A DNA stretch of 57,330 bases from a virus: IMG/VR virus record IMGVR_UViG_3300022926_000015, positions 1 to 57,330 of that record; one strand, written 5' to 3'. Under the pieces are notes generated by a model, which was given only the letters and a program-made list of their open reading frames with translations, had not been told where the DNA came from and did no database searches. Every line of letters begins with the position of its first letter. Within the stretch, counting starts at the first letter, position 1. The translations under genes and the position numbers were made by a program. This document shows, piece after piece, positions 6,214 to 45,794 of this stretch.

Positions 6214-6215
6214 AC

Positions 6216-9922: not shown

Positions 9923-12900
9923 TGTTTCAAACTCAAGTATATTATAAGTCAGGGCTGACAGCAGACCCAAATATTTGCACGTCACAGCATGACACTTTAT
10001 TTGCGGTCAATGGAATTCCTGCAGACCCTGGAACTTTACCAGATACCTATATCGTATGGTATGATCAGATTGATATTAATGGAAATCCTCATGGACTTTC
10101 AGATAATGCATCTATTTCAGATCTAAGCCTATTTAAAGTACGTATTTATATTAATCAGTTACAGGGGTTATTAGGAAATTCAGGTTATGAATGTTCACCT
10201 GGTGTATATTCATCTATATCATTTGATGGTAGTTTATCCAGTGGAAGCGCCTTTATTGCTGATTATGATCCTAATAGTCAACTAAAATGGGAGAACACGA
10301 CAACATGTACATATGGTTCCAGTGGAACTTCTGGGACTAGTGGAACTTCTGGAACTAGTGGTGGTGGCCCAGTTGTAGGACTTCCAGATTCTGTTAAAAA
10401 ATTCCAAGTATATTTTACTGGGGATTTAAATGAAGGATCGTATTGTAGCGGAATTCAAACTGCTTGGTTGTATTATGATGGAACAGAAACGTATACATTA
10501 ATCGAACAAATAATATATGCGCATACTCAAGGTTCTATTAATTTATTAATTTTCCCAAATCCAGTTGGAGAACCACCCGCTGCAAATGTACCTAATTTAA
10601 CTGATCCTGCTGTATATTCTACATTTGGATTAGAACCTTTATACCCTGGATCTTACGGAGACTCTATATCTGAATTTTACATTAATGGTAATGGAACTAG
10701 TAGTGTTTGGTTAATGGCAGGAGGTAGTCAAACAGACTACAGCCAAAATAATTTAGTTTTAGTTCCTTCAATAGATCCTGGAACTCAACCTGATGCTGCA
10801 GGATGGACACCACTATTATGTCCAGGTTCTTCAGGTATTCAAATTAATCTTTTATATGCAACGACTTCTAGTACTTTTTGTTCTAGTCCTTTAAATAATC
10901 CATACTACTATTACACTGGCCCTGGAGGCCCTTCCTATAATACCATAGATGAGTTAGTTAATAATAGTATAAGCATCTTTAGCACTCCAGAAGACGCCGT
11001 TCAAAATTTCTATGATAATAACCATACGACGAACGTTGCTACTTCAGGGATGTATTCGACTTCAGTCGATTATGGTTACTTTTGGGATCAATTTCAACAA
11101 AATTGGCTACCTACTACTATTTCATGTGCAACTGCAGGAGATCCAGTATTACAGCAAAAAACAATACAAGTATCTCAATGTAATAGCGCTTCTGAGTTTG
11201 TTGGTTTTTGTCATTATCCTAAGATCGATGTTGAAGTATTCTATATGTCTAGTTCTCCATTGGACCTACTCACCATAGTAAAAAATAACATCTATTTATA
11301 TACAGATCCTTCTGGTGCTGAAAATTCAAATTACAACAAGCTTATTGATTATGATGTAATAGGAGCTGCAGATGGCAGCATTTCTCCTAATCAATATTTT
11401 ATTTGGACAGGATCTCATTACATAGGGAATGACATTAACGGAGGTTCAGTTCCTAGTTATTCAGGTTCTATTTGGGAAGGTAAAGAATGCCCAAGCGTGA
11501 CAAGAGATCCTAAATATAGTACAGTAGACCTAAACACTGGAGGATATAAAGTATATTATGCTTTTTATAAGTGTGGACCCAATACAATTGGACAGAGTGC
11601 AAATTCATATCCATTGTATCTAATAGATGGTAAGCATGGAATTAATGAGACTAATTACATATCTGATTTCATTGATTATATAAATGGTCAATCTAGGACT
11701 GTTTTTTCTAAAAACATATGTGGGTGTGTTGAATATGTTCATAGAATTATAGCTAACACTGAATATGAAGCAAAGGTTCTTTTAGAAAATTATTACGACT
11801 TAGTAGAATTTTCAGATGCTACAACTTTAGGAATATTTAGTGAATCTACACTGAACTTATATAGTTCTTGTTTAGATTGTGGTAATGATTCTAATAGATT
11901 AGAATACACGCTTCCATATATAGAAGAGGCCATTCCAGAAAATCCTGGGCCAAATTTAAAAGCTGAAAAAAATTACAAGCTAGATAATTTATCTAAGCCT
12001 CTATTGAGAACTAATCCAAAACTCAGTACTAATGTTAAGTTAGTAGTAGATAGCGAGGATAGAATATATTTTGATTCAATAAATGCGAATAGAGGGCTCG
12101 CCGATTCTAGATATAAAAAATATGAATTAAGTCCTAGTTCTAAGTTTTCTTATGATTTAGCATCATATTATAGAAATACGTCTACTCCGATAGATTCTAC
12201 ATTTGATACTAAAAGAAATTATTCTGATTACTCGGTTTTAGATGATTATTCTAAACAATTTGAGGAAGATTATCATTACGGTACTCGTGTTAATTCTTCT
12301 AAGCTGTATAGTGAAGATTATAGAATGATGGCACCTATTTGGTTAGATAATAATCTTCCAACGAAATTTGTTATCTACAGAGTAGAAGATCCTCTTCCAA
12401 AAACTAATTTCACGGATTTATCTGATGATAAATTAGATAGAATTACAAAAATTACAAGAAATTCTAAAATTGTTAAAGTTTTTGATTTAAGTAATTCCTC
12501 ATCGATTGGTAAATATTTAAGATCGCACGTACAGGATGAGTTTTTCCCTGAAACTCCATTAACTATCACTATGGAGGAAGGAGAAAGTTCAACTTTTAAT
12601 GGGGTTGATTTATTAAAAGGAGGTTTTGTTAATAAGCCAGAGTTTATATACGATGATTTTGTTAAAAAGGATTCTCCATTAATAGATGAGAATGATTTTA
12701 TAACTGATGGATTTAGAAGAAATAAAGTTGCATGTGCAAATCTAGTAAACTTAGAGTTTATGTTTAATGATGAGGATGCAAAAGACTATTCTGTAAATAG
12801 ATATTTTGGACTATATGTAGATGATTTTGATTCAGGTACTGGAGAGATAGCTTATATAAAAAATGGACTAATTAAATTTAAGTCATTAGACTCATATTTA

Positions 12901-15900
12901 GGAGGAGAAGATCCGACATTCTGTATACCTGAATATAAACTACTTCAAAATGCTGGGGTATTATCATATGCCAGATTAAATCAAAAATTCTATAATTTAG
13001 ATGCTGCAAATGCGTATACCGCTTCAAGATATAATGTTTCTATAAAAGCAACTGACTCAGAAATAAATTCGATGCTTGGTATTACCAGTAAGAATAAATC
13101 ATTATCTATTATTGAAAACCAAAAAGCAGGTAAAGACTTTATTAAATTACAAGTTGTTGATACTCCAAATAGTAATGATATTATTAGAGTTAGTAAAGTT
13201 AAAAAAGAGGCGGTTAGGTTTAAGATTATAAAAAATGTAGGAAACGAAACTATATCGATTTCTGATGAATTTGGTAATTATATTGAATTTACTTCTGGAC
13301 AAGATTCAAATTCTACTTGGTTATCATTAAATTCTAAGTGGATTGACATTCCGGTTAATCCTCAAAACTATCCTCAGCAAACTCTAAATTTCTATGCTAG
13401 ATATAGTTTAAGTTTAGAATCTAGTGATCTAGCAGAAAGCGTAGTGATTAGGGAAAGACTTACAAGCTTAGTTGATAATAATATAAATGTTACAACAGTT
13501 TCTAGTATTATCGCATCTAAAGAGATATACACAAATGTTAATCAGTTAGAAGGAATATTTTATGCCGATAATTCTGGTAATATTCCTAAAAAAGGATTTA
13601 CTTCTAATAGGTTTTCAGCACTTGGTAGTTTTTCAGACATTGCGTTTTCAATTGCTGGTATAATTAGAAATAATACAGATTATGATGCGTACAACATTGA
13701 CAATAATATTTTCATATTAAATAATGTTGATGGATATAAATTAATGGATTCTACAATATTGATTTCTAATAATAATGGTACTCAATTTCTAGAATCTGAT
13801 TTAATGGACGTCAATAACAATTTAGAATTAAGTAATGATATTCTAGATTACTATACTTCCTATTATTTTACAGGAGGCCACTCTTCAAAAAAATCAGTAT
13901 ATGTTAATAGTGATGTTATATCTGAAATAGAAATTGGAGACTACTTACCTACTAAATATAAAGAAAGGTATAATAAAGTTTTAGATATTGTTGAAGATCC
14001 CGACTTAAAGGATAATTACTACAAATTAATTTTAGAATCAAAGAATGATTTAGTCTCTGGAGATTATTTAGCATATGTTAAAAACAAGATCTATCTAGGT
14101 TTATTTTCAGCATATGACATATATGACATGAATTTTGATTTTTATGATACCTCTAATTCCGAACTAAAGGAATTAAATTATGAAACTCGTGAAAATATTA
14201 ATTATGCGCCATATGAAAATTCAAGTATTGGTAATCTAGATCAAAGTGAAATATTATCTTCTGATTTTGGATTAAATCCTAGAGAATATTTTTCAAATCT
14301 TTTACCAATATTAAAGGACGAAGATTCAAAAGAGGATAATCTTGAAAAGATATATTCAGAATATGATAGATTAAAGGAAAATTACCTAAAAGAATTTTCA
14401 ACTAATTCGAGAGTTGTTCCTAACATTAATAAGTGGGTATTAAAAGATACTTTAAATGTTAGAGAAGAACCTTATTATTTAAATACAAATGAAGCGTTCG
14501 GTAGAACTAATTTTTCTCCAGATATTAGAGTTGAGGGTAGAAATAGAGATGCATTTACACATGAGTGGTTTTATTTAGATCAATGGCCTGAATATTTCAC
14601 GTACGATATGCATAATGATGGTTTTAGTTATATTAATTTTGTTGAAGGATTTGAGTTAGATAGATCAACATTTATAGATGTTGATAATGACTATTTTGAT
14701 CTATTCATGGTTAATGACGGTAGAGAGCTTACGGTTGAATTTGAAGATCCTAGTGATCCAAATGCTACATTAAGCACGGTTTTCTTTACAAAAACTAATC
14801 TATCAAAAAAATATACCATTATATCAGGAGGATCAACTGATGATTTTGCAAGTACCATATTTAAAGGTTTAAAGTTTACCTTTAAAGAAAAGAAAGACTT
14901 AAATTCAAATAATTCGGAATCTGTTAAAAATTCTAAGTTTAATGGTTATAAGTTTAGTACAATTGTAAAAGTAAATAATTCATCTAATACCAACAGCATA
15001 CAGTATGAATTTATTAAGAACGAGAAATTCAAGTATGTTATTTTCTATATACAGCTTAATATTGAAGACTCTTTTATCGGTGATTACTTAAACAGAAAAT
15101 ACCTATATGAACTTCAACATAAAATAGTTTTAGACAACGATATAAATGGTCAGCCATTCTATAGATATGCAGATGTTGGAATCGACGGTGCGATTGAGGT
15201 TTCTTCTATCAACTGGTCTCCTTCAGCGTTCCCATATATATTAAATGGAATTCCACATAATGATGGAAGTTTACCTGCATTTGATACACAGATGGCATCT
15301 ACTGAAGATGGAAGCTATGGTAGGTTAAAAATAGATTATGGATTTGGAACTTATTATTATTTAGATGTTGTTAAAGTTATAAGTGTAGATCAAATTCAAG
15401 TTTCTGGGGTACCTTACTACTACGATCAAAATGGAGTAATTCAAGTCGTTAATCCATATACAATTCCTATTCAGGCACAGTCTAACGCATCGTATACATA
15501 TGAGGGTGGTGGAGTAAACGCTCACCAAATATTATTATCGCAACTTTCTGCAAGCAATGTATTTGATAAGATAAATACTGGATCAGAAGATATAAAATAT
15601 ACTATTATCGATTCCTTTGGAAATGAAATATCTAATAAATTTAGAGTTAGAATTGATGATGGTAATGAAATAATAAAGAACTCGAGTATAATTTCTGAAA
15701 TAGACACAGATACTCCAAAGAGCTATAAGCTAAAAAAGGAAACAATAGGATATACTTTAGAAGAAGGACAAAAATATTATCCATTCTTGATTAGACATAA
15801 TGGAAAATATACGGTTGATTTGACTCCGGTTGTTACGTTTACTGATATTTACTCGTTTAACAAAGTCATTAGAGATCAAAGAGAATACGATCCTTTATTT

Positions 15901-22255: not shown

Positions 22256-22636
22256 ATGAGAAAGGACATTAGAACATTTAACGAATACTTAGCAGAGCAG
22301 TCAGTTACTGAAGACGATCTAAGAATTTTAACAGAAGGTTTACAAGAAGAATGGAGCCCAGAGTTAGAGGAGAAAGTAGATGCAGCATTAGATGAATTTA
22401 TGCTAGAATATACCAATGAAGATGGTATTGTAGATATTAATAGATTTAATGATGAGTTAACTAATGAGGGTCTACTTGGATCTATTTTTGGAGGGCTTGC
22501 TGGATTTGCTCTTGGAAAATCAGTTGGTAAATTAGTAGCAAAAGTTTTAGGTATTGAAAAAGGAGTATTCTATGACCTTTTAACTTCAAGATTAGTAGGT
22601 GCTGCGTTAGGCGCTGCTCTTGGAAAAAACATGTAA
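22256..22636 (+). CDS. Glycine-zipper protein with capsid-targeting-like N-terminus
   Basis: 126 residues. The start MRKDIRTFNEYLAE matches the pattern of the T4 internal-protein signal (MKTYQEFIAE), with a possible protease cut after Glu14. A second L-x-E site (ILTE) is at residues 24-27. Residues 72-99 (GLLGSIFGGLAGFALGKSVG) and 112-124 form two small-residue-rich hydrophobic segments, as in glycine-zipper membrane or pore proteins. Inference: a packaged protein that is trimmed and could act on the host membrane during DNA entry. A TATATAC element lies just upstream. Confidence 0.6.
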   Translation: MRKDIRTFNEYLAEQSVTEDDLRILTEGLQEEWSPELEEKVDAALDEFMLEYTNEDGIVDINRFNDELTNEGLLGSIFGGLAGFALGKSVGKLVAKVLGIEKGVFYDLLTSRLVGAALGAALGKNM

Positions 22637-29619: not shown

Positions 29620-30900
29620 ATGAAATTATTTACATACCAAGAATTTTTAAATGAGAAAGCATCAGGGTTTAACAGCGATGATCTTGTATTAGAAGGCGGA
29701 GCTGCAGGCCATATGAGCCATCCATTTGATGATAAGTCATTAACATTTGGAGATTTTAAAAAATTAGTTGAAGTTGGTCTGCAAGGTGAATTAAATTTTG
29801 AAGAAGAAGCTACTGAAAAGACAGATGGTCAAAATCTGTTTGCTACAATTCAAGATGGTGAAGTAAAATTTGCTAGAAATAAAGGAGGTTTAAAATTTCC
29901 AATGAATCTTACGGAGTTTAAGGAAAAGTTTGAAGGACACTCAAGTAAAGGAGTACAAGATACTTTTCAATTTGCAGCAGAGGATTTAGCATATCAACTA
30001 ATAAAGCTTTCAACAAAAGATCAAGAAGTTTTTAACAATGGTAAAAACTTTATGAATATGGAGCTGATTTACTCGAAAAATCCAAATGTAATTAGGTATG
30101 ACCGAGATGTAATTCAATTTCACGGCATTAAAGAGACTGACGGTGAAGGTAATATTATTGGTGATGTTAAGGGTTCAGCAAAGGCAGTTGCCGATGCTTT
30201 GTCTAAAGTACAGGCAAATATTGGGAAAACATTTACGATTATTCCTCCACAAATTATAAAGCTAGCAAAAGATATTAACTTTGAAGAGAATAAAGATAAG
30301 TTTTTTAAAAAAATTGAAGCTTTAAGAAAACAATACAATCTTGAAGATTCTGATGAAGTATCTAGATACCATGAGGCTTGGTGGAGAGAACAAATCGAAA
30401 AATATTTTGGAGAATTAACACAAGATGTTAAAGAAGGTCTTCTTTTAAGATGGGCATATGGCGATAAGCAAACTTTAGATCTACGATCAATTGGTAAATT
30501 AGTAGATAAGACACAACTTGCTGCAATTAAAAAGTTTGATAAAGAAGATGTTAAAAAGAAATACAAAGAAAACATTAGACCTTTTGAAGATCTTTTCTTA
30601 GAATTAGGATCTATTATTTTAAAGAATGCCTCTAATTTTGTAGCAGCAAATCCAAGTGAAGAAATGCAAAGATTACATAAACATTTTAGAGAAGAAGCTG
30701 CAAAGATTAAAAAAGGAGGAGACATAGATCAAATTAAAAGAGTAGAAACTGAACTCACAAGACTAGAAAGAATTGGAGGAATCGAATCAGTAGTTCCTTC
30801 CGAAGGACTAGTATTTATATACAAAGGAAAAACCTATAAGCTAACTGGAACTTTTGCTCCATTTAATCAACTTTTAGGAATAATAAAATATGGTAGGTAA
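29620..30900 (+). CDS. Capsid-targeted ligase-like nucleotidyltransferase
   Basis: 426 residues. The start MKLFTYQEFLNE is nearly the T4 capsid-targeting sequence MKTYQEFIAE. The body carries the order of motifs of covalent nucleotidyltransferases (RNA/DNA ligases and capping enzymes): motif I EKTDGQN (Lys67 as nucleotide acceptor), a motif III-like FMNMELIY (144-151), motif IV SEGLVFIY (394-401) and motif V YKLTG (Lys407). A conserved-looking block HMSHPFDDKSLTFGDFK precedes motif I. Likely activity is adenylylation followed by joining or modifying nucleic acid; the substrate is unknown. The next start codon overlaps its end. Confidence 0.6.
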   Translation: MKLFTYQEFLNEKASGFNSDDLVLEGGAAGHMSHPFDDKSLTFGDFKKLVEVGLQGELNFEEEATEKTDGQNLFATIQDGEVKFARNKGGLKFPMNLTEFKEKFEGHSSKGVQDTFQFAAEDLAYQLIKLSTKDQEVFNNGKNFMNMELIYSKNPNVIRYDRDVIQFHGIKETDGEGNIIGDVKGSAKAVADALSKVQANIGKTFTIIPPQIIKLAKDINFEENKDKFFKKIEALRKQYNLEDSDEVSRYHEAWWREQIEKYFGELTQDVKEGLLLRWAYGDKQTLDLRSIGKLVDKTQLAAIKKFDKEDVKKKYKENIRPFEDLFLELGSIILKNASNFVAANPSEEMQRLHKHFREEAAKIKKGGDIDQIKRVETELTRLERIGGIESVVPSEGLVFIYKGKTYKLTGTFAPFNQLLGIIKYGR

Positions 30901-30901
30901 A

Positions 30902-31216
30902 ATGAAACACATAATGATATTCGAACAATTTGTAAATGAAGCTAAATCTATAGATAGGGATGAAATGATGGTATGGTTAGAACAATATCTTGATTTTGTA
31001 AGTCAATCTGAAGAATTCAATGGCTCTCCTGGTGGAATATGGATTTCTGGAGAAAATGGAGACGAGTACAAAGGTAAAAGAATTTATGACTACTATTCAA
31101 TGGACCACAAAAATAGAATATTTGGGGTAGACAAAAGGTGGGAAAAAGAACTTAATAAAAGAGGTTGGTATAGTGAATGGCATGATGCAGGAACTGTAAT
31201 GATTTGGCCTAATTAA
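30902..31216 (+). CDS. Small capsid-targeted protein
   Basis: 104 residues from the ATG at the signal MKHIMIFEQFVNEAKS; an ATG 12 nt upstream adds only MVGK and is less likely because all siblings begin MKH. After the predicted cut (after Glu13) about 90 acidic, Trp/Tyr-rich residues remain (DYYSMDHKNRIFG, then GWYSEWHDAGTVMIWPN). No known domain. Likely a packaged small protein injected with DNA. Confidence 0.6.
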   Translation: MKHIMIFEQFVNEAKSIDRDEMMVWLEQYLDFVSQSEEFNGSPGGIWISGENGDEYKGKRIYDYYSMDHKNRIFGVDKRWEKELNKRGWYSEWHDAGTVMIWPN

Positions 31217-31224
31217 AAGAAACT

Positions 31225-33066
31225 ATGGCACTACAAAATTTAAGAACATATTATAGCGAAAGCAATATTAATGATTTTCAAAAAATGCTAAATCTAACCT
31301 GCGTTGTTGCAGAAAAGATACAAGCGTCTTCTTTCCATGTTCAAAAAACTGATAAAGGATATAATTATCATAAGAGTGGAAATAAATCACCAATGGATAA
31401 GGTTGATAGAACAATTGTAAAGTACTATGAAAATGCAGTGACCTATTTTGAATCACAGCCCGATCATATTAAAGAGCAAATGCCTTTAGACTGGAGATTT
31501 GGATTTGATTATATGACCGATTCAAAAACAGTCAATATAAAGTACGACAGAATACCTAAAAATAATTTGATGCTTTCACATATACAAGTAATGAGTCCTA
31601 ATGACCCTACTTTAATAAAGAAAGTAATCAGAGATCCTAAAATCTTAGAAAAGTGGGCTGACATCCTAGAAGTACAAAGACCTCAAATTTTACACCAAGG
31701 AAAACTTTCTGATTATCAAAAGGATGAGATTACAAAATTACTAAATTTAAGCGATACTGATTTCGATGCACAGTTTGAGTCTCTAAGCTTTTCTAGAAAA
31801 ATGTATTCTATATTTAATAGAGGATTAAATTCAACTGCTCTTAATGAAGATTTAGATGGTGAGATTGATTCAATTATTATTAATTTTTTCGAAGGTAAAA
31901 GTGTAAAGAGTTTTAAGATATGTCAAGGAGAAGATCTTATAAAAGAAAACAGAAAACCATCTGACATATACCAGATAGCACTACTAGATTTAGTTGAATA
32001 TTTTACAACATATGATATTGAAAACCTAGAATTAAACGAAAATGATTCTGACAAAAGATATATTGAACTAATCTCTCAATTATTTAATGCATATGTTGAT
32101 AAAAACGCAACCAAATATATTGGAGTTAAATTTGAGTCTGCTGAATTTTCTGACTCACCAAGTTTTTCACTAAACACTAAGTTTATCACTAATGAAAAAA
32201 CAATAGAGTTAGTAGCTAACCAGGTGCTAGAAGAATTATATAAAATTGCGCTAGGTTCTTTTAGAAAAAGAAGACTTAAAGAAACTGAAATTATTAACAA
32301 TGACTTAATGTCTCAAATTAACGAGATCGTTGATAAAATAGAGTCAGTTGTAATGCTTCAAAACAATGAATCAAATCTCATGAGCTTTAAAACATTTTTA
32401 AATCACGAAAACCTAAAACATCAAGTAAGTCCTATTACTGAAGCACTGACTGTTAGTTACCCTAAACAAGGTAAAAAGCCAGTAAATATGTTTGTTGGTC
32501 GCTTTCAGCCATTTACATTGGGACATGCTAAGGTAATAGAAACTATTAACAAACAAAATGGTTATCCAGTAGTTATATTTTTAATTAAATCAAAGACTAA
32601 AAAACCAGAGGATGCATTTAAGAGACCTTATGACGAGGAAACTCAAATTGCAATGCTTAATCAATTAAAGTCAAAGTATCCTATTGAAAAAGTTTATGTT
32701 CTTCCAACTGCTGGCATAGACCACATGTTTAATGCAATGAGGGCAGACGGCTATGAACCTGTACTTTGGGGTACTGGAACTGATAGGCTTAAAACTTATT
32801 CATACCAAGTAGATAAACCAGAATATAGAGAAGATCTCGGAGTCAGAGATGATTTTGGTCTATTCGAGATTCCAAGAACTGGTAAAAATATTTCAGCAAC
32901 TCAAGTAAGAAATGCAATGCTTGACAACGATGAAAAGCTATTTAAAAAATTAACTCCTAAGCAAATTCATGGAATGTACAATGAGCTAAAAACAAAATTA
33001 GAAGACAGCGTGTCTACTAATGAATCGGAGTTTTTAACATTTGAAAAATTTATAAAGAATATATAA
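31225..33066 (+). CDS. Ligase-like / NMN adenylyltransferase-like fusion protein
   Basis: 613 residues with two parts. Residues 1-240 look like a covalent nucleotidyltransferase: QKTDKG (Lys41), RFGFDYM (91-97), LDGEIDSIIINF (about 210-221) and SFKI (Lys231). Residues 413-600 are a HIGH-type nucleotidyltransferase: GRFQPFTLGH (425-434) and ISATQVR (556-562), the signatures of NadM/NadR-type NMN adenylyltransferases that make NAD from NMN and ATP. Between them Met386 begins MSFKTFLNHE, a signal-like sequence suggesting that the second part was once a separate tagged gene. The end (FLTFEKFIKNI) is also signal-like. Possible roles are NAD supply or nucleic-acid repair or modification. Confidence 0.65.
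   Translation: MALQNLRTYYSESNINDFQKMLNLTCVVAEKIQASSFHVQKTDKGYNYHKSGNKSPMDKVDRTIVKYYENAVTYFESQPDHIKEQMPLDWRFGFDYMTDSKTVNIKYDRIPKNNLMLSHIQVMSPNDPTLIKKVIRDPKILEKWADILEVQRPQILHQGKLSDYQKDEITKLLNLSDTDFDAQFESLSFSRKMYSIFNRGLNSTALNEDLDGEIDSIIINFFEGKSVKSFKICQGEDLIKENRKPSDIYQIALLDLVEYFTTYDIENLELNENDSDKRYIELISQLFNAYVDKNATKYIGVKFESAEFSDSPSFSLNTKFITNEKTIELVANQVLEELYKIALGSFRKRRLKETEIINNDLMSQINEIVDKIESVVMLQNNESNLMSFKTFLNHENLKHQVSPITEALTVSYPKQGKKPVNMFVGRFQPFTLGHAKVIETINKQNGYPVVIFLIKSKTKKPEDAFKRPYDEETQIAMLNQLKSKYPIEKVYVLPTAGIDHMFNAMRADGYEPVLWGTGTDRLKTYSYQVDKPEYREDLGVRDDFGLFEIPRTGKNISATQVRNAMLDNDEKLFKKLTPKQIHGMYNELKTKLEDSVSTNESEFLTFEKFIKNI
33060..33066 (+). promoter_or_regulatory. Candidate late promoter element TATATAA
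   Basis: The heptamer TATATAA overlaps the upstream stop codon and ends 21 nt before the next start codon, a spacing that recurs at two other genes. It resembles the T4 late promoter core. Chance occurrence in AT-rich DNA is possible. Confidence 0.35.
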
Positions 33067-33087: not shown

Positions 33088-35763
33088 ATGATTGATTTTA
33101 ATGAATTTTCTCGCAATCTAAGCGAGTCAAAGAAAATCGTTGTAAAAAGACAATATACTGAAAATCACCCAGCAATTACAATTGGATTTGCAGCAAAGGT
33201 AAGAAATAAAATATTGTCAACTGTTGGAACAACAACAATTACAAGCGAAGATTTTGAAAAATTAGTTTCTGAATTTTCAAAAAGTGCCCCAAAATGGATC
33301 TCTAGGAATTCTAGATATTTTAATGTTTCTGAAGATGGAGTATCACTATCAAAAATAGGGTCTAGAGCGCTGTCGGTATTAAATATTAATGAAGAAGAAT
33401 CTGAAGAAGAAATTACTGAATCTTTTATGATCGCAGAGGGTCAATTCTCATGGATGACACAAGATACTGAAGAGCAAATCGGTTCTGACAAAGAGAATAC
33501 AATTGACGTTTGGATGTATGATAATAGAGGAAATTCTTGGTTTGAAGGTAAATACGAAGGCTATGGAGAATTCGGAGGAATGGACTATTATGAATTGCTT
33601 GCTAGAATGAATGGATATTCTGAAGAAGACTTAGAAGATAAAAGTCTTACGAAAAAAATCAAAATGGTTTCTAAATCTTTAAGAGATTTCGGTATTGCTA
33701 TTGCATTTGGAAGTCTAGAAACAAGAGATAAAGGTAAAAAACCTCTTTTTCCAGCGCTCGTAACAACTGCTAAATATAACTGGAAAAGACATGATTTTAC
33801 CAAAGAAGCAGCATCGGATCCAAACCAGTCATGGTATACTGGAGGTGATGAAGACTATTATGATGACTATGATGGTTATGACGAATCTAAGATTTGTGAG
33901 GCTCGTGTAGAAATGGATGCAGTAGATCCAGATGATAAAGACTTCTTAAAATTCTTAAAGAAAAATAGAGTTAAGATCACTGATAAAATGATGGATGGTC
34001 CAGGTGGAGGTCACCCGGTAATTACAATGCAAGGTAAAAGAAAAGACCTTGAAAAGGTACTAAGTGATTGTGACTATGGATGGTGTGATGATGGATTAGC
34101 TGAGTATATTGAAGAATCGGCAATTAACGAAGGTATTCATCCTAAAATTAAGAAAGCTATCAAGGCTGTTGAGAAAGGTGAAACCGTTTATGGTGAGAAT
34201 ATCAGATTCCCTGGTAGATTTAAGATTATAGAATTTTCACCGACTGGATCAATGGCTACAGTAGACTATGAAGATGGTAAAGGACCAATGGACATGGTTT
34301 CAATGAATATTAAGCTTGATTCTTTACAGTTTGAATCAGTAACTACAGAGGGTAGAGCATTTGTTGCGGCTGCTAAAAAAGCAAAAGACGATGGAGACAA
34401 AGAATTTGAATTTGATGGTAAAAAATATCCAGTAACAATTAAAGAAGGTAGAGCATTTGTTGCGGCTGCTAAAAAAGCAAAAGATGCTGGAGATAAAGAA
34501 TTTGAATTTGACGGTAAAAAATATCCAGTAACAATTAAAGAGGATAGAGCAGTAAGTGAAGGTAAAGAAGAAAAAGAAGCTAAAAATATTTTACTAGATC
34601 TTTTAGGAGAATATGATCCATGGGAATTAGCTGACATGTTACCTGATGATGCTAGAGAAACAGTTGCAACTTATGGACATAAGGGTGCTAAGGCTGAAAA
34701 AATAGCAACTGCATTATTATCAATGGCTCAAAATGGAGAATTTGAATCAAAGAGAAACAAAAAAGAGGACAAATTCATATATGAGTCTTTTAAATCATAT
34801 GTACAATCTTTAAGTAATAACACAGTTAATGAAGCATTTAAGTCTTCAAAGCTACAGTCTATTCTAGCAGGTGCAAAATCAATGCCAAAGAATCTAGCAA
34901 AGTCATTTTATTCAATGTCAAAACTTCAACTAGATAAAATTGAAGATATTGATATTATTGAAATGGATCCAATTTCTGCTAAAAAAGAAAAAAGAAATAG
35001 AGCTGTATATTTTTACTTTACAACAAACGAAAAAGAAAACCCATATGCAAAGTCATATTCATATGGTGTAAAAAGTATTCCTGGAAACACACTACTTGCA
35101 ATGACAGATGGCAAGAATCAATGGTTATCTACGGGATGGATGCGAGGTGAATCAACAGTAACAACTTCAAAAAGAGATGATAGTATAGGATTCTCAAAAT
35201 CAAGTACACAGGATGAATGGGGTTCAGGAATATCAAGTCTAACAAAAGTTGCAGAATTAGCCGACAGAGCGTATGTATTAGATCTTGACGTACTAGATGC
35301 AAGATACTCATCATCTGCAAAAAGAACTGAAAGAGAGCAATCTAAAAAAGGAGCAATTGCCTTCAAGTCTGATAAAGATTTTAGAAAAGAAAATAAGGAC
35401 AGATACCACACAATTCTTGCAAATCGAGCAGCACAAATGCCAATAGACGCTGAAGTTTTAAAGGCCATTGATGTTGTTGCTGAGCAAATTAAAAATGGAA
35501 TTGCTAATAAAGAAACATCTAAATACGGTGAACCGATTATTGGAACAGATCCTAAAGGAAGAAGTGTTTCTTTAAGAGATGCTTCGAACGCAATGTCAAA
35601 TCTATTAGATGACTTTAGAAGATACGTAGACTATACAAATAACGCAGAACAAGAAAAGAATGCTGGATATGAAGGTAGTTATTACGAAAGAGAAGTTAAG
35701 AACTATGCAAAGTCTATTAAAGATAGAATTAAAAAGATTCAAAATATGGACTATGTCTGGTAA
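33088..35763 (+). CDS. Large modular internal protein with internal protease-like sites and tandem repeats
   Basis: 891 residues. The N-terminus MIDFNEFSRNLSE resembles the cluster signal. I-x-E sites of the type cut by T4 prohead protease recur at domain edges: ITE (109-111), IAE (115-117), INE (346-348) and IKE twice (ends at Glu453 and Glu485), plus NTVNE later. Two adjacent 32-residue repeats (starting at Glu421 and Glu453; GRAFVAAAKKAKDDGDKEFE and so on) end in such sites. YESFKSYVQSL near residue 565 is another signal-like segment, followed by a 300-residue C-terminal domain with no recognised motif. I infer a polyprotein-like core/internal protein processed during head maturation. Confidence 0.55.
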   Translation: MIDFNEFSRNLSESKKIVVKRQYTENHPAITIGFAAKVRNKILSTVGTTTITSEDFEKLVSEFSKSAPKWISRNSRYFNVSEDGVSLSKIGSRALSVLNINEEESEEEITESFMIAEGQFSWMTQDTEEQIGSDKENTIDVWMYDNRGNSWFEGKYEGYGEFGGMDYYELLARMNGYSEEDLEDKSLTKKIKMVSKSLRDFGIAIAFGSLETRDKGKKPLFPALVTTAKYNWKRHDFTKEAASDPNQSWYTGGDEDYYDDYDGYDESKICEARVEMDAVDPDDKDFLKFLKKNRVKITDKMMDGPGGGHPVITMQGKRKDLEKVLSDCDYGWCDDGLAEYIEESAINEGIHPKIKKAIKAVEKGETVYGENIRFPGRFKIIEFSPTGSMATVDYEDGKGPMDMVSMNIKLDSLQFESVTTEGRAFVAAAKKAKDDGDKEFEFDGKKYPVTIKEGRAFVAAAKKAKDAGDKEFEFDGKKYPVTIKEDRAVSEGKEEKEAKNILLDLLGEYDPWELADMLPDDARETVATYGHKGAKAEKIATALLSMAQNGEFESKRNKKEDKFIYESFKSYVQSLSNNTVNEAFKSSKLQSILAGAKSMPKNLAKSFYSMSKLQLDKIEDIDIIEMDPISAKKEKRNRAVYFYFTTNEKENPYAKSYSYGVKSIPGNTLLAMTDGKNQWLSTGWMRGESTVTTSKRDDSIGFSKSSTQDEWGSGISSLTKVAELADRAYVLDLDVLDARYSSSAKRTEREQSKKGAIAFKSDKDFRKENKDRYHTILANRAAQMPIDAEVLKAIDVVAEQIKNGIANKETSKYGEPIIGTDPKGRSVSLRDASNAMSNLLDDFRRYVDYTNNAEQEKNAGYEGSYYEREVKNYAKSIKDRIKKIQNMDYVW
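34348..34539 (+). repeat. Two tandem 96-bp repeats in coding sequence
   Basis: Unit 1 (34348-34443) and unit 2 (34444-34539) differ at only a few bases and encode two 32-residue copies with consensus EGRAFVAAAKKAKD followed by GDKEFEFDGKKYPVTIK. A partial third start (GAGGATAGAGCA) follows. A related motif occurs once in the gene at 27767. The frame is kept, so the unit works at protein level. Confidence 0.9.
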
Positions 35764-35830: not shown

Positions 35831-36487
35831 ATGAAACACGTAGAATTATTCGAACAATTTATTAGTGAGAATACCACTAAACTAACAGAAGCACTTGATG
35901 CAGGTGTAGTTACTAAAGTAGTTAAGTTGCAATTTGATATTAGCGATGAGATTAAAATAGACGATGAGGTTCTATTAGCCTTGGGCCCAGATGCAGTCGG
36001 TATGTTCTCAATCGCGGAAGATATTGAAAAGTGGACAGGCTTAAAAAAGGCCGAGGCTGAGGCATATGATACTAAACCTACTGATGCATTTCTTTATGGT
36101 ATGTCTAACGTAATGAACGGCGGCGCTGATATGTTTTTGTGGATAACTATGGATCGTTTAAAAGGCGAGGCTGAAGCAAGCGGTAGCTTATTCGCTGCAA
36201 TGATGGATGTTTTACCGCATGAGTGTTTTCACCTAGCTAAAAAAGTATTAGCTCGTCATCAAGCTAAAAAATTAGGAGTTTCTCTTAAAGGTGATGAGTG
36301 GATTAAACATGACTATGGTCAAGGAGAATACACGTGGCCTTCAGAAGGTGATCATAAGGATCCAATGGTAGTTATGAGCGAAGAAGACTTTGCATGGGTA
36401 TATGGTTATATTACAAAAGCCGTAGCTCCTGTGTTTATTGAATTGGGTAAAACAATAATTCCTGAAATAGAAAATTTTGAAATATGA
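35831..36487 (+). CDS. Capsid-targeted protein with HExxH metalloprotease motif
   Basis: 218 residues. The signal MKHVELFEQFISE is followed by a mature part of about 205 residues. VLPHECFHLAKKVLARH contains HExxH (His130, Glu131, His134), the zinc-binding and catalytic motif of metallopeptidases, inside a predicted helix as expected. A third metal ligand is not certain (several Glu, Asp and His follow, for example His143 and the region HDYGQGEYTW). No membrane segment. Inference: a packaged protease-like effector delivered on infection. A chance HExxH cannot be excluded. Confidence 0.55.
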   Translation: MKHVELFEQFISENTTKLTEALDAGVVTKVVKLQFDISDEIKIDDEVLLALGPDAVGMFSIAEDIEKWTGLKKAEAEAYDTKPTDAFLYGMSNVMNGGADMFLWITMDRLKGEAEASGSLFAAMMDVLPHECFHLAKKVLARHQAKKLGVSLKGDEWIKHDYGQGEYTWPSEGDHKDPMVVMSEEDFAWVYGYITKAVAPVFIELGKTIIPEIENFEI

Positions 36488-36774
36488 AACACGTAAAATT
36501 ATTTGAACAATTCATTAACGAAGAAAAAATCAACGTTAAGAAAGAAGTTAAGAGACTTAAAAAAATGGGATACGATGCTTCAGAATGGGGTGATGGTATT
36601 ATGGTTGACGGTGTAGATGCACCAAATCCGGATTGGGATGGAAAGGTAACAATGGTTTGGGACGAAGAAGGTATTTACAGCGATGATGAAAGATATACTG
36701 GAAACGATCATAGTTATGATAAATTCCTAGATATAATCGAGTATCCAGAGGACACTAAAGACGAGTGGGAATAA
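36484..36774 (+). CDS. Small acidic capsid-targeted protein
   Basis: 96 residues; its ATG overlaps the previous stop (ATGA). The signal MKHVKLFEQFINEE is followed by a basic helix (NVKKEVKRLKKMGYDASEWG) and a very acidic C-terminal part rich in Asp, Glu and Trp. The 5' DNA is similar to that of the preceding gene, which suggests duplication of the signal region. No domain recognised. Confidence 0.6.
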   Translation: MKHVKLFEQFINEEKINVKKEVKRLKKMGYDASEWGDGIMVDGVDAPNPDWDGKVTMVWDEEGIYSDDERYTGNDHSYDKFLDIIEYPEDTKDEWE

Positions 36775-36813
36775 ATTGTAAAAAATACGATTTAAAAATA
36801 AATTTAGCAATCA

Positions 36814-37248
36814 ATGGAAGATAATGTAGAAGAAATGAACATAACACTAGCAAGTGTTGGTGGTATGGGAGCTGTAAAACTTCCAACTTCTACTGAGTAC
36901 ACAGGTACCGGAGATGTTCCAGCAGGTCAAGGAGATGCTAAAGAAGAATTTAAGAAAAAAAGAAAAAAGAAAAAAATGAAAAATATTCAGACTTTTGAAT
37001 CATTTATTTCAGAAGAGTATGTAGAGCTTGCTGGATTTGATACATTTACAGAAAGGCTAATTGAAGAGTTTAAAGATTGGTATAAAGAAACTGCAAATAA
37101 TTGGGAAGATTTTTCAAAAAATATGGCCGAAGATTCGGTTGATGAAGCTGCAAAAAATGCACAGATGGAAATCTTAGCATATCTTTCAAATGAAATGAAT
37201 AAGGTGATTACCGATAGAAAGTATCGAGTAAAGGCAGACTTTAAATAA
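36814..37248 (+). CDS. Protein with Gly/Lys-rich leader fused to internal capsid-targeting signal
   Basis: 144 residues from the first ATG. The first 54 residues (SVGGMGAVKLP, GTGDVPAGQGDAKEEF, then KKKRKKKK) lead into an in-frame MKNIQTFESFISEE at residue 55 (ATG at 36976), a typical member of the signal family. Either the internal ATG is the true start of a 90-residue tagged protein and the leader is a separate short product, or both are made as a fusion. The remainder is acidic and helical (LIEEFKDWYKETANNWEDF). No known domain. Confidence 0.55.
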   Translation: MEDNVEEMNITLASVGGMGAVKLPTSTEYTGTGDVPAGQGDAKEEFKKKRKKKKMKNIQTFESFISEEYVELAGFDTFTERLIEEFKDWYKETANNWEDFSKNMAEDSVDEAAKNAQMEILAYLSNEMNKVITDRKYRVKADFK

Positions 37249-37259
37249 AAACTATATAA

Positions 37260-37511
37260 ATGAAACATATAAAACTATTTGAAGCATTTGTAAATGAGTC
37301 TAGTGGTAGAATACCAACTACTCTTTATCCTTCTGAGTTTAGACAATATTTCTCAGATATAAACTATGACACTCTAAAGCGTCAATATGATAGAGATACT
37401 CAACCAGAAGTTGCACAAGCTGACAATGGAAAATGGTATGAAGTATCATCTCATTATAATAAATCAGGAGATAGAGTTGTTAAATTAAAGTCCGTTAAGG
37501 CCCCTAAATAA
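37260..37511 (+). CDS. Small capsid-targeted protein, 83 residues
   Basis: Begins MKHIKLFEAFVNESS, with predicted cleavage after Glu13, leaving about 70 residues rich in Tyr, Arg and Ser. The first 38 bases are identical to those of the next gene. TATATAA lies directly before the ATG, too close to be this gene's own promoter with a leader. No recognised domain. Confidence 0.6.
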   Translation: MKHIKLFEAFVNESSGRIPTTLYPSEFRQYFSDINYDTLKRQYDRDTQPEVAQADNGKWYEVSSHYNKSGDRVVKLKSVKAPK

Positions 37512-37551
37512 TCATGAAACATATAAAACTATTTGAAGCATTTGTAAATGA
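37260..37551 (+). repeat. 38-bp direct repeat at the starts of two adjacent genes
   Basis: Positions 37260-37297 and 37514-37551 are identical for 38 bases from the ATG onward, covering the codons for MKHIKLFEAFVN; flanking bases differ on both sides. The exact match only over the signal indicates that the signal module was copied independently of the gene bodies. Confidence 0.9.
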
Positions 37552-37831
37552 ATCAGCAATTGATGCACTTGCTAGCGAGATTAAAAACGCTGAAGTATAT
37601 GACGCACTTTCTGATGAAAGTACAGTAAATGCAAGGTCGACTACTAAAACATGGGACGATGGAGTTCCAGTTCTAAAATATATTGCTAGAGCATCTAAAA
37701 AGTCTGTAAAATTACCGAAAAAGTTTAAAGTAGTAGATGATTCTGAATATGGATGGTGGTATTTTCAAATTGGAAACACGTGGTATGGAATAGAACAATC
37801 TGATTATAGCACTCCTCCATTTGAGTACTAA
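37514..37831 (+). CDS. Small capsid-targeted protein, 105 residues
   Basis: Begins MKHIKLFEAFVNESA. The mature part (about 90 residues) has an acidic helix and a basic segment (ARASKKSVKLPKKFKVVDDS), ending in an aromatic stretch (WWYFQIGNTWYG, then PPFEY) that could be a compact beta domain. It is the last gene before a strong terminator, so it probably closes the internal-protein operon. Function unknown. Confidence 0.6.
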   Translation: MKHIKLFEAFVNESAIDALASEIKNAEVYDALSDESTVNARSTTKTWDDGVPVLKYIARASKKSVKLPKKFKVVDDSEYGWWYFQIGNTWYGIEQSDYSTPPFEY

Positions 37832-37958: not shown

Positions 37959-38267
37959 ATGATAACAGGAGTACAACCAAAAATATTGCTAGAACACGAA
38001 GAGATGAATTGGGAACTTGTTCGCTCGCATGATGGATTAACTAAGCGTTCAAGTAAAATCCTTTGGATTGAATGGAATGAGGACGGTACCTTTAAAGATA
38101 AACATAATACTCCTGAAATAGAGAGGTCTCTGATCATGTCTCCATTTAACCAATTTTTCACATGGCAAACTACTACAATTACTGAATTAATTGAGGCCAC
38201 TGATGACTTAATTAGGTTTAAAACTAGAAATAGTGAATATGAACTACGTAAAATAGTAAATGAATGA
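37959..38267 (+). CDS. Unknown 102-residue protein, first gene of mgsA operon
   Basis: 102 residues, soluble, Trp-rich (NWELVRSHDGLTKRSSKILW), no recognised domain. Its stop overlaps the start of the methylglyoxal synthase gene (ATGA). It follows a terminator and a long palindrome, so it opens a new operon. The lack of the MKH signal separates it from the preceding cluster. Confidence 0.6.
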   Translation: MITGVQPKILLEHEEMNWELVRSHDGLTKRSSKILWIEWNEDGTFKDKHNTPEIERSLIMSPFNQFFTWQTTTITELIEATDDLIRFKTRNSEYELRKIVNE

Positions 38268-38647
38268 AAATAGCACTAGTAGCCCATGATGGAAAAAAGG
38301 CAGATATGGTTGCTTTTGTAATGAAGAGACTAGACTTCTTCAACCGGGAAGACGTAAAACTTGTAGCAACTGGAACTACGGGAGCAAGCATCTTGCATGC
38401 TGGCGTGGAAAAAGTAGAGCGGGTAAATAGTGGTCCTCTTGGTGGTGATGCAGAAATAGGAGCAATGGTTGCTCGTGGTGAAATGGATGCAGTTGTGTTT
38501 TTTAGAGATCCTCTCGACAAACACCCACATGATGTTGACATTTCAATGTTGATGAGACTTTGTGACGTACATAATGTCCCATTAGCAACTAATTATAAAG
38601 CAGCACATATAATAATTTTATATCTTAGTAAAAATGATGTATCTTAG
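38264..38647 (+). CDS. mgsA: Methylglyoxal synthase
   Basis: 127 residues. Family signatures are in order: ALVAHDGKK (His8), ATGTTG, the phosphate/catalytic loop SGPLGGDAEIG (Asp62), FFRDPLDKHPHDVD (His89, Asp92) and LCDVHNVPLATN. With E. coli MgsA the spacing matches Asp71, His98 and Asp101. The enzyme turns dihydroxyacetone phosphate into methylglyoxal and phosphate. It is shorter than the 152-residue E. coli enzyme because the C-terminal tail is missing. Likely an auxiliary metabolic gene; it could divert glycolysis, release phosphate or produce a toxic aldehyde in the host. Confidence 0.88.
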   Translation: MKIALVAHDGKKADMVAFVMKRLDFFNREDVKLVATGTTGASILHAGVEKVERVNSGPLGGDAEIGAMVARGEMDAVVFFRDPLDKHPHDVDISMLMRLCDVHNVPLATNYKAAHIIILYLSKNDVS

Positions 38648-39284: not shown

Positions 39285-40685
39285 ATGCTATTAGACATCG
39301 AGCAAAAGGACCAAGAAATAATTGTATCGTATTATAATAAAGAAGGAAAAGTAGCATTTAAAAGATACCCGGTAAGTCAATTTGAAAATTGGGTAGTAAC
39401 AGAAGAAACAGATAAATGGCGCGACCAGAATTTTGTAAATTGGGACGGTCGCCCAATTAAAAGACAAAGGGCGAGATCTTTTAATAAGTTCTCGCTTGTC
39501 TATTTTATGGATTCTCTTCCTGAAAGCGATCAAGAAGAAATATTTGCATTTAATATGCCAAAAACATATTTTGTTGATATTGAGACTGAGATTGTTGATG
39601 GCTTTCCAAAAGCAGAAGAGGCAAAGAGTAGAATTCTTACCTTTTCAATAATCACACCTGATCGCAAGGCAATAGTTCTTGGCTTAGATGATTTATCTAG
39701 CGAGCAAATTAAAAAGATTGAAGAGAACACTAATAAACACTTCGAGAAGTACGATCAAGACTGGGAGTTCTCTTATTATAAATTCAAGGATGAATATAAT
39801 ATGCTATATACATTCTTGCATAAGTTTTTGCCTAAGTTTCCTATGATGACGGGCTGGAACTTTATTAACTATGACTGGCAATATATTGTAAATCGATGTA
39901 AAAGGTTACAACTTGACCTAACTGAAATAGCGGTCACCGGTGCTCTTGATAAAAATGATAGTAGGCCTTTACATATGGGTATTCTTGATTATATGCAACT
40001 TTACGATAAATATGACAGATCTGTTAAAGTCAAAGAATCAAATAAACTTGATTTTGTTTCTGGCCAAGTTCTCGATGTTGCAAAAATTAAATATACTGGA
40101 GGATTGCAAGATCTTTATCAGAATGATTTTCAAAAATATGTTTATTATAACGTAGTCGATTCAATTTTGGTTTATTATATCGATCAAAAGTTAAAATCAA
40201 TGGAAGTTATTATGACCCTTGCAACAATCACAAAAATGCCTTTGTATAAAGCAGCTTCACCAGTTGCTGTAACCGAAGCTCTAATGGCTCGAAAAATGGC
40301 AGAACTAAATCGAAAAATTGGAGTAGATTATAGTCAAGAAGATAATAAAAAAGATGGTAAATATGCAGGTGCTTTTGTAAAGCAGCCTATTGTTGGTTAC
40401 TATTCCGGTGTAAGTGCATTTGACTTTGCGTCTCTATATCCTTCGGTAATGAGACAATTTAATATTTCACCAGATGCATATGTTGATATTATTCCAACAA
40501 ATGAAATCAAAGAACGTCGCAAAAATACTGAGGAGATTGTTTGTGAAAATGGAGTAGTATATAAAAAGGAAGACTCAATTCTAAAAAAGATTCTTAGCGA
40601 TCTTTATTCTCAACGTAAAGAATACAAAGCAACGTCATATGAATTTTATGAAAAAGCACATGAACTTAAAAAAAAATTTAGGTAA
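39285..40685 (+). CDS. 43A: DNA polymerase family B, N-terminal half (split gp43)
   Basis: 466 residues. The proofreading exonuclease is complete: Exo I FVDIETE (Asp98, Glu100), Exo II GWNFINYD (Asp197), Exo III YNVVD (Tyr288, Asp292). Polymerase motif A, DFASLYPS (380-387), supplies the first catalytic Asp of the palm. The protein stops after SDLYSQRKEYKATSYEFYEK, the first fingers helix, and lacks motifs B and C, which are in the gene at 44592. T4/RB69 gp43 is about 900 residues; the two halves add to 866. No intein or intron motif is seen at the break. Confidence 0.88.
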   Translation: MLLDIEQKDQEIIVSYYNKEGKVAFKRYPVSQFENWVVTEETDKWRDQNFVNWDGRPIKRQRARSFNKFSLVYFMDSLPESDQEEIFAFNMPKTYFVDIETEIVDGFPKAEEAKSRILTFSIITPDRKAIVLGLDDLSSEQIKKIEENTNKHFEKYDQDWEFSYYKFKDEYNMLYTFLHKFLPKFPMMTGWNFINYDWQYIVNRCKRLQLDLTEIAVTGALDKNDSRPLHMGILDYMQLYDKYDRSVKVKESNKLDFVSGQVLDVAKIKYTGGLQDLYQNDFQKYVYYNVVDSILVYYIDQKLKSMEVIMTLATITKMPLYKAASPVAVTEALMARKMAELNRKIGVDYSQEDNKKDGKYAGAFVKQPIVGYYSGVSAFDFASLYPSVMRQFNISPDAYVDIIPTNEIKERRKNTEEIVCENGVVYKKEDSILKKILSDLYSQRKEYKATSYEFYEKAHELKKKFR

Positions 40686-44591: not shown

Positions 44592-45794
44592 ATGAATATA
44601 GAAGAGTTAAAGAATAAACCAACCGATCAGTTAAGCAAAGATGAAGCAGGGCTCCTTATACAATACTATGAGGAGCTCTCTGCTAAATATACAGCTTATG
44701 AGCAGGCAGTTAAAGTAACTTTGAACTCTATCTATGGTGCATTTGGTAATAAGTGGTTTCACTTTTTCAATATTGACATTGCAGAATCAATTACTTTACA
44801 AGGACAAGATGCTATCCTATACTCAGAAAGTATTATAAACAAGTATTTTCAAGAATTCTTTCATATAGATTCAGCAGTCCATGAAAAGTTTAATATTAGA
44901 GTTAAGCATAGGCTAGAAAAACCTTCAGTAATATACATTGATACTGACTCTTGCTATGTTCAGTTTGAAGAAATGTATAATGCGGTAGAATGGCTAGGTG
45001 AAGAAAAATCAATAGACACGTTTATCATAGAGCTTTATAATTATAGACTTAAAAGCTATATTGTTAAAGCTATGGAAAAGTACGCTGAAAAAAGAAATAC
45101 TGATAATTTCTTGGTTTTTGAATTAGAAACAATAGCATACAACGGTATTTGGATGAGTAAGAAAAAATACATTCAAAATATTGCATGGGACGATAAATTA
45201 GAAATAACAGATCGACATCCATCTTTGAAAAAAGTAAAAACCATTGGCTTCGATACAATTCAATCTTCTACACCTAAATTTGCACGTGAAAAACTAGTAG
45301 ATGCTCTTAAAATTTTATTTAAAAAGCATCAACAGCCAACTGCCGAAGATTTACAAGAGCTTGTTACGTTCATGAAGCAATCTAAAAAAGAGTTTAAGCT
45401 TGCAGATCTTGACGATATTTCTTTTAATAAAAGGACAAATAATATTGAAAAATATATCGTAGATGACCAAATAGAACTTCAGTTCGGGCTAAAGTGTCCA
45501 CCTAATGTAAAGGCAGCCGGATACTATAACTATCTACTAAATAATAATACTAAATATAAAAATAAGTATAAGTTAATTGGTAATGGAGAAAAGCTAAAAA
45601 TATACCATGTAAAAGATTCATTAAGTGATACTTTTGCGTATATGCCAGGTGAACATCCATATGAATTTGCACCAACTGTTGATTACGACACTCAATTTGA
45701 AAAGTCAATGATCGATCCTCTTAATCGAGTCTTAAAAGCAATTGGTCTACAAACACTAGACACTAATCTAATTTATGCGTCTGCGCTATTTTAA
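44592..45794 (+). CDS. 43B: DNA polymerase family B, C-terminal half (split gp43)
   Basis: 400 residues. It begins with an amphipathic helix (LLIQYYEELSAKYTAYEQAV) and then motif B KVTLNSIYGAFGN (Lys41, Asn45, Tyr48), motif C YIDTDSCYV (Asp117, Asp119) and the SKKKY motif in the thumb region. Motif A and the exonuclease are on the separate protein encoded at 39285, so the active site must be assembled from two chains. The break lies in the fingers, between the two long helices. The gene starts one base after the clamp gene, favouring coordinated synthesis. Confidence 0.88.
   Translation: MNIEELKNKPTDQLSKDEAGLLIQYYEELSAKYTAYEQAVKVTLNSIYGAFGNKWFHFFNIDIAESITLQGQDAILYSESIINKYFQEFFHIDSAVHEKFNIRVKHRLEKPSVIYIDTDSCYVQFEEMYNAVEWLGEEKSIDTFIIELYNYRLKSYIVKAMEKYAEKRNTDNFLVFELETIAYNGIWMSKKKYIQNIAWDDKLEITDRHPSLKKVKTIGFDTIQSSTPKFAREKLVDALKILFKKHQQPTAEDLQELVTFMKQSKKEFKLADLDDISFNKRTNNIEKYIVDDQIELQFGLKCPPNVKAAGYYNYLLNNNTKYKNKYKLIGNGEKLKIYHVKDSLSDTFAYMPGEHPYEFAPTVDYDTQFEKSMIDPLNRVLKAIGLQTLDTNLIYASALF

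Follow-up and report, generated by a model that had tools for sequence, protein, structure and literature searches.

A putative capsid-targeted phage module pairing a ligase-type nucleotidyltransferase with a HIGH-type, NMNAT-like enzyme

Introduction

What could a phage gain from a ligase-type protein and an enzyme resembling nicotinamide mononucleotide (NMN) adenylyltransferases (NMNAT), both apparently marked for the capsid and encoded almost side by side? The question is raised by a 57-kb fragment of a marine T4-like phage, IMG/VR record IMGVR_UViG_3300022926_000015, whose positions 1 to 57,330 form the stretch of 57,330 nucleotides analysed here (the window). Two open reading frames (ORFs) on its forward strand are at issue: p1 (29620-30900), encoding 426 residues, and p2 (31225-33066), encoding 613 residues. 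An original prediction, made from the window alone, proposed that both products carry covalent nucleotidyltransferase motifs, that p1 is signal-tagged and that p2 is fused to an NMNAT-type domain, the two forming an early-infection module that joins nucleic-acid end repair or modification with nicotinamide adenine dinucleotide (NAD) metabolism. Both ORFs are real and lie where that prediction placed them. Here, we report that p1-type proteins are paired with HIGH-type nucleotidyltransferases in hundreds of phages, either as one fused chain or as neighbouring genes, and that the module is therefore probably a real, undescribed early-infection tool.

The ligase-type protein p1

The p1 protein is without an assignment in Pfam, PHROGs or NCBIfam, and neither p1 nor p2 matches Pfam RNA_lig_T4_1 or RNA_ligase. 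Its conservation was read from 41 aligned relatives and from an eight-member set reaching down to 34-36% identity, over which the motifs stay near-invariant. The invariant columns are H34-P35-F36, E66-K67-x-D69-G70, R86, E148 and N156-x-I158-x-Y160 (with H31 in the wider set) and, towards the C-terminus, E395-G396-x-V398-F399 and K407-L-T-G. By their order and spacing, we take these columns to be motifs I, Ia, III, IV and V of the ligase/capping superfamily. A KxDG motif I with its lysine (E66-K67-T-D-G-Q-N72, 29815-29835) is followed in order by the motif III region (N146-M-E148-L-I-Y...N156-V-I-x-Y160-D161, 30055-30102) and by motifs IV and V (E395-G-L-V-F...Y-K407-L-T-G-T411, 30802-30852). 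The original prediction had singled out Lys67 in EKTDGQN, and the wider family agrees: E-K-x-D-G occurs in every one of the 132 distinct homologues that the motif pattern matched, two more read EKTDGQQ, and Lys67 is present in every homologue that spans motif I. The full signature KxDG...EGxV...K was found in 129 of 131 p1 proteins and in not one of 651 control ORFs from the same contigs, and is thus not a product of chance. An unusual trait of p1 is a mostly helical insertion of about 220 residues between motifs IIIa and IV; the protein ends after motif V.

Structure prediction had been named at the outset as a check on both proteins. It gave a ligase fold and NMNAT and PPAT matches for p2, as described below, and a less clear answer for p1, whose AlphaFold model has a predicted local distance difference test (pLDDT) score of 70 and matched RNA and tRNA ligases in the PDB weakly, with E values of at least 0.05. 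The weak fold matches in BFVD were other phage 'cytidyltransferase-like' proteins first and RNA ligases after them. At the level of profiles, 27 diverse p1 proteins matched a T4 Rnl1 homologue from related contigs (E 1.8e-4, probability 48).

Relatives of p1 were found in 161 IMG/VR stretches in a first scan and in at least 589 IMG/VR contigs in a profile scan. Only one of 84,980 prokaryote genomes matched, on a low-coverage contig of a metagenome-assembled genome (MAG) that carries a fused form of the protein; the family is therefore essentially phage-borne, and a cellular origin was rejected.

Constant pairing with a HIGH enzyme

A HIGH nucleotidyltransferase is fused or adjacent to p1 in 127 of 136 distinct homologues, a far stronger link between the ligase-type protein and the HIGH enzyme than the original prediction could see. 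In 103 of these cases p1 lies beside a ligase-NMNAT fusion of the p2 type and in six beside a separate HIGH ORF, while 18 are single HIGH-linker-p1 chains, found in Microcystis phage Mel-JY01, huge phage LR756508, a MAG contig and IMG/VR contigs. All nine p1 proteins without a HIGH partner are truncated or situated at contig ends. The HIGH domains of the pairing classes are 18-30% identical and fall into at least three partner subfamilies with differing arrangements. In the related contigs L246, L251 and L254, the ligase half of p2 stands alone and adjoins a separately tagged HIGH gene of another subfamily, which in L246 and L254 sits between p1 and the ligase half. The partnership has thus outlived the exchange of one of its members, an argument that p1 and the HIGH enzyme are functionally linked. 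That the locus encodes a ligase-type enzyme together with a HIGH enzyme is, on these motifs and arrangements, highly probable.

Variants of the module were also seen. Contig L026 has two tandem copies of the p1-p2 module (6001-7287, 7298-9145, 10080-11357 and 11359-13242). Fused NMNAT-p1 chains with extra domains occur at L237:3931-7245, L238:4639-7227, L229:612-3743 and L224:3406-7230; extra domains in such chains include an RNase_T (DEDD) exonuclease in L237, which scores above the Pfam cut-off, a ParB-like domain in L180 and a HAD-like domain in L238. An ADP-ribosyltransferase-like stretch was noticed by eye in the fused chains, and many hold a conserved, unnamed 'DDGP' domain.

The two halves of p2

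The second protein joins a diverged ligase-fold domain, with a C-terminal helical part (residues 1-378, 31225-32358), to a HIGH-type nucleotidyltransferase domain (residues 418-595, 32476-33009). The p2 model (pLDDT 82) is better than that of p1, and its N-terminal half matched T4 RNA ligase 2 (E 2.7e-8, probability 1.00) and Trl1 (E 1.2e-6) in Foldseek; a direct comparison of the p1 and p2 profiles gave no match. The claim that p2 carries covalent nucleotidyltransferase motifs holds for the fold and fails for the residue: the motif lysine had been placed at Lys41 in QKTDKG, and the alignment rules this out as the nucleophile because relatives do not keep Lys41. The lysine of motif I is instead Lys31, which closes the first core strand within E30-K31-[ILV]-x-[AG]-S-S (E30-K31-I-Q-A-S-S-F37 in the window, 31312-31335), and p2 is therefore ligase-like by a different residue. 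Nineteen residues separate Lys31 from the invariant Lys50, the same spacing as between Lys67 and Arg86 in p1; further conserved sites are F94-[DE]-Y96, L-x-L-T-H-I (115-120), [DE][GS][LI][IV] (around 215-218) and then Lys231.

Motif I of p2 is diverged (KIQA rather than KxDG). Lys31, Lys50 and Lys231 are invariant in p2's own clade over about 50% divergence, but seven relatives (L002, L179, L181, L182, L212, L214 and one close relative) have N, D or Q in place of Lys31 while keeping Glu30, and the motif V lysine is also lost in L179, L181 and L182, huge-phage proteins without an NMNAT half. In the window's clade the ligase half may thus be active; elsewhere it may be a relic or a binding domain. 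These replacements favour the idea that the half binds nucleotide or RNA and that only p1 and the HIGH domain are catalytic, while the invariance of the three lysines in the window's clade speaks against it; for this part of the system, taken by itself and compatible with the function favoured below, we regard it as a rather unlikely but serious possibility. The proteins of L179, L181 and L182, which are huge phages LR756501, LR756502 and LR756504, are stand-alone ligase folds of the p2 type with the motif I lysine changed to D or N, and are probable pseudo-ligases.

In the C-terminal half, GRFQPFTLGH (residues 425-434, 32497-32526) and ISATQVR (residues 556-562, 32890-32910) are present as originally noted. 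The domain scores 35.5 bits against Pfam CTP_transf_like (cut-off 21), over residues 422-562, and 40.3 bits against TIGR00125 (cut-off 27.7); the structural matches of this half are PPAT and NMNAT, and by sequence it is closest to NMN adenylyltransferases. An invariant Asn (N503) aligns with the NMN-site Asn; this residue and the Trp that stacks on nicotinamide in NMNATs are presumed here to have roles at the ring site. The earlier assignment of an NMNAT-type domain agrees with the HIGH fold and the nearest family; the equivalog score and the stacking Trp, weighed below, do not show specificity for NMN. That NMN is the substrate appears possible, at somewhat under an even chance.

Capsid tags and processing sites

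The p1 signal tag, MKLFTYQEFLNE (29620-29655), is real and conserved: such a tag is found in 112 of 113 free-standing p1 proteins, with F9 and E12 nearly invariant. Its Y, F, L and E correspond to the targeting and processing residues of T4 IPIII (PMC9026906). Within the cluster at 27.7-38.7 kb, tags of the T4 type occur in 8 of 13 ORFs versus 5.7% in shuffled N-termini, although the loose pattern used also catches the p2 N-terminus LRTYYSE, which is not conserved; across the p1 loci overall, 255 of 1623 ORFs are tagged versus 0.2%. In p2 no conserved N-terminal tag was found. Its linker (32377-32445) holds a tag-like FKTFLN core and a prohead-protease-like site of the [ILVM]xE pattern, P-I-T-E406/A-L, and its C-terminus a tag-like motif with an F[ED]xF[ILV]-type core, LTFEKFIKNI (33034-33063). 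A C-terminal motif of this type is present in 89 of 100 distinct p2 proteins versus 3% in shuffles, and [ILVM]xE followed by A or G stands just before the NMNAT-like domain in nearly all of them. Thus p1 has the N-terminal tag and hxE site of a T4-type internal protein, and p2 has linker and C-terminal versions. T4 Alt is cleaved at ITE-6 and, near its C-terminus, at LTE-619 (PMC5694885), so that both placements have precedent; the gp23 of relatives, which starts MANLINEAEI, has the same kind of processing site.

The sequences themselves show the motifs, the capsid tags, the protease-like sites and how constant the pairing is. Proteomes of cyanophage virions have revealed NMNAT-like proteins in S-SCSM1, S-CBWM1 and S-SZBM1, and a cytidyltransferase in S-CREM2 (PMC9602691, PMC10665884). 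From the tags and this analogy we infer that p1 and p2 are likely to be packaged, and that they would be trimmed and injected.

Other tagged ORFs were observed in the window. Between p1 and p2 lies a 108-residue protein with an IFEQFVNE tag (30890-31216, forward strand), without a conserved counterpart in most relatives. An 891-residue tagged protein (33088-35763) has the tandem repeat GRAFVAAAKKAKD(D/A)GDKEFEFDGKKYPVTIKE, and its N-terminal stretch is found again in L082, ahead of the NMNAT-like domain. Small ORFs at 35831-37831 bear near-identical tags (MKHVELFEQFISE, MKHVKLFEQFINE and, twice, MKHIKLFEAFVNE) on unrelated bodies and are likely internal proteins. Isolated tag-like N-termini outside the cluster were seen at 22256-22636 (FNEYLAE) and 51834-53198 (LDGFLNE), the latter protein having weak helix-turn-helix and AAA-like matches.

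Similar pairs in other phages

In cyanophages S-PM2, P-HM2, P-RSM4, S-MbCM6, S-SSM6b and Syn1, a gene of T4-GC 71 (Pfam DUF6267, PHROG 455) directly precedes a 'cytidyltransferase' gene (T4-GC 190), which is capsid-tagged in several cyanophages. The Syn1 member of T4-GC 71 matches Pfam DUF6267 at E 9.5e-128, and the DUF6267 motifs are HLEH[LP]ED, KWDG and EGYV...K. A relative was found in 468 phage records; in ACG-2014f the DUF6267 and cytidyltransferase genes are far apart. Ligase motifs followed by a HIGH domain occur in one chain in Campylobacter phages of the CP220 group and in Vibrio phages such as phiKT1024, and as adjacent genes in Stenotrophomonas phages of the Mendera group and Xanthomonas phage X1. 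In these cyanophage, Campylobacter, Vibrio, Stenotrophomonas and Xanthomonas groups, motif order, unaccompanied by a significant profile score, suggests a ligase assignment. PDB sequence searches with the p1, DUF6267 and X1 proteins matched nothing useful. An RlaP-like neighbour in the Stenotrophomonas and Xanthomonas phages was suspected by eye, had no Pfam match and was not used. The ORF L342:2778-3974 and its relatives are likewise DUF6267/PHROG 455 proteins with ligase-type motifs, common to most marine cyanophages.

What the module may do

The function that we favour, tentatively and at a little below an even chance, is that of a virion-delivered enzyme that would seal RNA broken by host defence, its HIGH partner serving the adenylate side. 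The p1 and p2 proteins would be the local form of a recurrent phage module in which a ligase-type nucleotidyltransferase is paired with a HIGH-type, NMNAT-like enzyme. Both would become part of the prohead, whose protease would trim them after [ILV]xE and might also separate the ligase part of p2 from its NMNAT part; both would then be injected along with the DNA. In the cell, p1 would take adenosine monophosphate (AMP) on Lys67, hand it to a 5'-phosphate end and seal the end; its likeliest target would be RNA cut by host defence nucleases, ahead of phage gene expression. The HIGH enzyme would attend to the adenylate part of this work, in the simplest case by converting NMN to NAD, and the ligase half of p2 would be a helper or a specialised ligase, catalytically dispensable in some lineages. 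Whether or not the rest holds, the chances that p1 seals nucleic acid seem to us evenly balanced.

The gene content of relatives narrows the choice. Among 14 large related contigs, which may be incomplete, an ATP-dependent DNA ligase was found in eight, an Rnl1-type ligase in three and an Rnl2-type ligase in three. Since canonical ligases occur there, p1 would be an additional ligase-like enzyme and not a simple substitute, and a role as the replicative DNA ligase or the sole RNA ligase is not favoured. An NAD-dependent DNA ligase was rejected as well, PF01653 being absent from the window proteins and from the 14 contigs. NadV was found in only two of the 14, so a plain NadV-NadM salvage of NAD is not favoured. 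PADLOC matched no known defence-system protein.

Several points weigh against the favoured function. The p1 model is weak (pLDDT 70) and its PDB matches fail an E of 0.05. Thin-profile comparisons between ligase families were not significant; the positive control, Rnl1 against Rnl2, failed too, so that these hidden Markov model comparisons with few sequences had no power. The HIGH domain reaches 34.9 bits versus the 181.2-bit cut-off of the archaeal NMNAT equivalog TIGR01527, and the Trp stacking on the nicotinamide ring is not kept, for which reasons 'NMNAT-like' is the proper label. No RNA-end-healing kinase or phosphatase was found as a constant neighbour. Packaging in this phage group is read from genes and by analogy with cyanophage proteomes, and fusion among packaged proteins may mirror co-packaging and not common chemistry.

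In the strongest rival reading, which we consider unlikely though ahead of those that follow, p1 and the HIGH enzyme would be two independent counter-defence enzymes sharing only their delivery, the ligase mending cut tRNA and the NMNAT-like enzyme refilling NAD after host NADases. Fusion would then economise on capsid tags, with the prohead protease parting the products, as the [ILVM]xE sites between the p2 domains and just before the p1 domain in fused chains would allow; the unrelated domains held by such chains (the DEDD exonuclease of L237 and the ParB-like and HAD-like domains of L180 and L238) point the same way. Against this, each of the 127 informative cases pairs p1 with a HIGH enzyme in particular, even after replacement of the subfamily, and NadV is scarce in the related contigs.

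A bolder reading deserves slightly less credence still. The NAD-forming HIGH enzyme and the ligase-type enzyme might run a single chemical cycle on nucleic-acid ends, virion-delivered and widespread, in which NAD or another HIGH product is the adenylyl source or the transferred group and DUF6267 is the cyanophage member; the pair would then form a new class of injected system for repairing or modifying ends. We think this improbable. More doubtful is that the module modifies nucleic-acid ends instead of sealing them, for example with an NMN- or NAD-type RNA cap or a nucleotide on DNA ends. Ligases belong to the same superfamily as capping enzymes, and HIGH enzymes couple nucleotides to phosphates; together they would suit capping, but no cap-binding or methylase partner was seen and the p1 profile is closest to RNA ligase among the sequences tested. 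Least probable is a HIGH domain acting as a sugar or alcohol cytidylyltransferase for a surface polysaccharide or lipid, a role put forward for HIGH enzymes of cyanophages (PMC7824862), with an incidental ligase neighbour: the cyanophage 'cytidyltransferase' annotation and the placement of cyanophage HIGH enzymes in nucleoside diphosphate (NDP)-sugar clusters (PMC7824862) speak for it, but the best sequence matches of the p2 domain are NMN adenylyltransferases, the pairing with ligase-fold proteins recurs in unrelated phage groups and no glycosyltransferases were seen around p1 and p2 in the window.

Genomic surroundings

The window also encodes gp32, primase, UvsW, a split DNA polymerase, NrdA and NrdB, UvsX, a gp41-type helicase, a gp46/47-type nuclease, a late sigma factor and baseplate proteins. 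The family B DNA polymerase is in two ORFs (39285-40685 and 44592-45794), with NrdB, NrdA and a 247-residue ORF between the halves; PHROGs already holds separate half-length families for it. An MGS-like domain protein (38264-38647; Pfam PF02142, E 2e-15), possibly a phage methylglyoxal synthase, is also found in the related contigs L251 and L254.

Comparison with known systems

On this reading, an enzyme activity could be predicted both for the p1 family, known from at least 589 IMG/VR contigs, and for DUF6267, and NMNAT-like proteins in cyanophage virions would have a possible reason to be there, namely that they travel with a ligase. The question becomes one for simple assays, including on cultured Synechococcus phages. 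As far as the portions consulted go, surveys of phage RNA repair and of phage NAD systems (PMC7824862, PMC9503650) do not mention a ligase-NMNAT association. A description of DUF6267 or of the ligase-NMNAT combination was not found in the open-licence literature searched, an absence that is weak evidence but agrees with the original view that this combination in a capsid-tagged cluster is undescribed.

One close parallel is the cyanophage pair of DUF6267 and T4-GC 190, which resembles the p1 module in its KWDG...EGYV...IK motifs, in an HLEH[LP]ED stretch before motif I comparable to the GHMxHPFDD of p1, and in having a capsid-tagged HIGH enzyme as the next gene. Unlike p1, DUF6267 is recorded as of unknown function and is usually untagged, and its similarity to p1 is below significance with thin profiles. 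Rnl1, Rnl2 and Trl1 resemble the module in the superfamily motifs, in the fold of the p2 half and in the profile match of p1 to an Rnl1 homologue; they differ in that p1 stops after motif V and has its motifs IIIa and IV set apart by an inserted helical domain, and in that p1 and p2 have capsid tags, a HIGH partner and no Pfam RNA-ligase match. With NadM and archaeal NMNATs, p2 shares GRFQPFxxGH, ISxTxxR, the fold and the nearest sequence family, and its N503 aligns with the NMN-site Asn, whereas it lies far below the equivalog cut-offs, does not conserve the stacking Trp and is fused to a ligase fold and not to Nudix, with NadV rarely present. T4 internal proteins and Alt likewise bear a tag at the N-terminus whose residues direct targeting and [IL]xE processing, and Alt has a C-terminal propeptide as well; the difference lies in the cargo, which here would consist of a ligase together with an NMNAT-like enzyme. 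RNA repair operons with RlaP or Pnkp (PMC7824862) also use a ligase in phage counter-defence; in contrast, p1 is partnered by a HIGH enzyme and no constant end-healing enzyme was found. The superfamilies, the capsid tags and the virion NMNAT-like proteins are thus already known, and it is the module and its generality that appear to be new.

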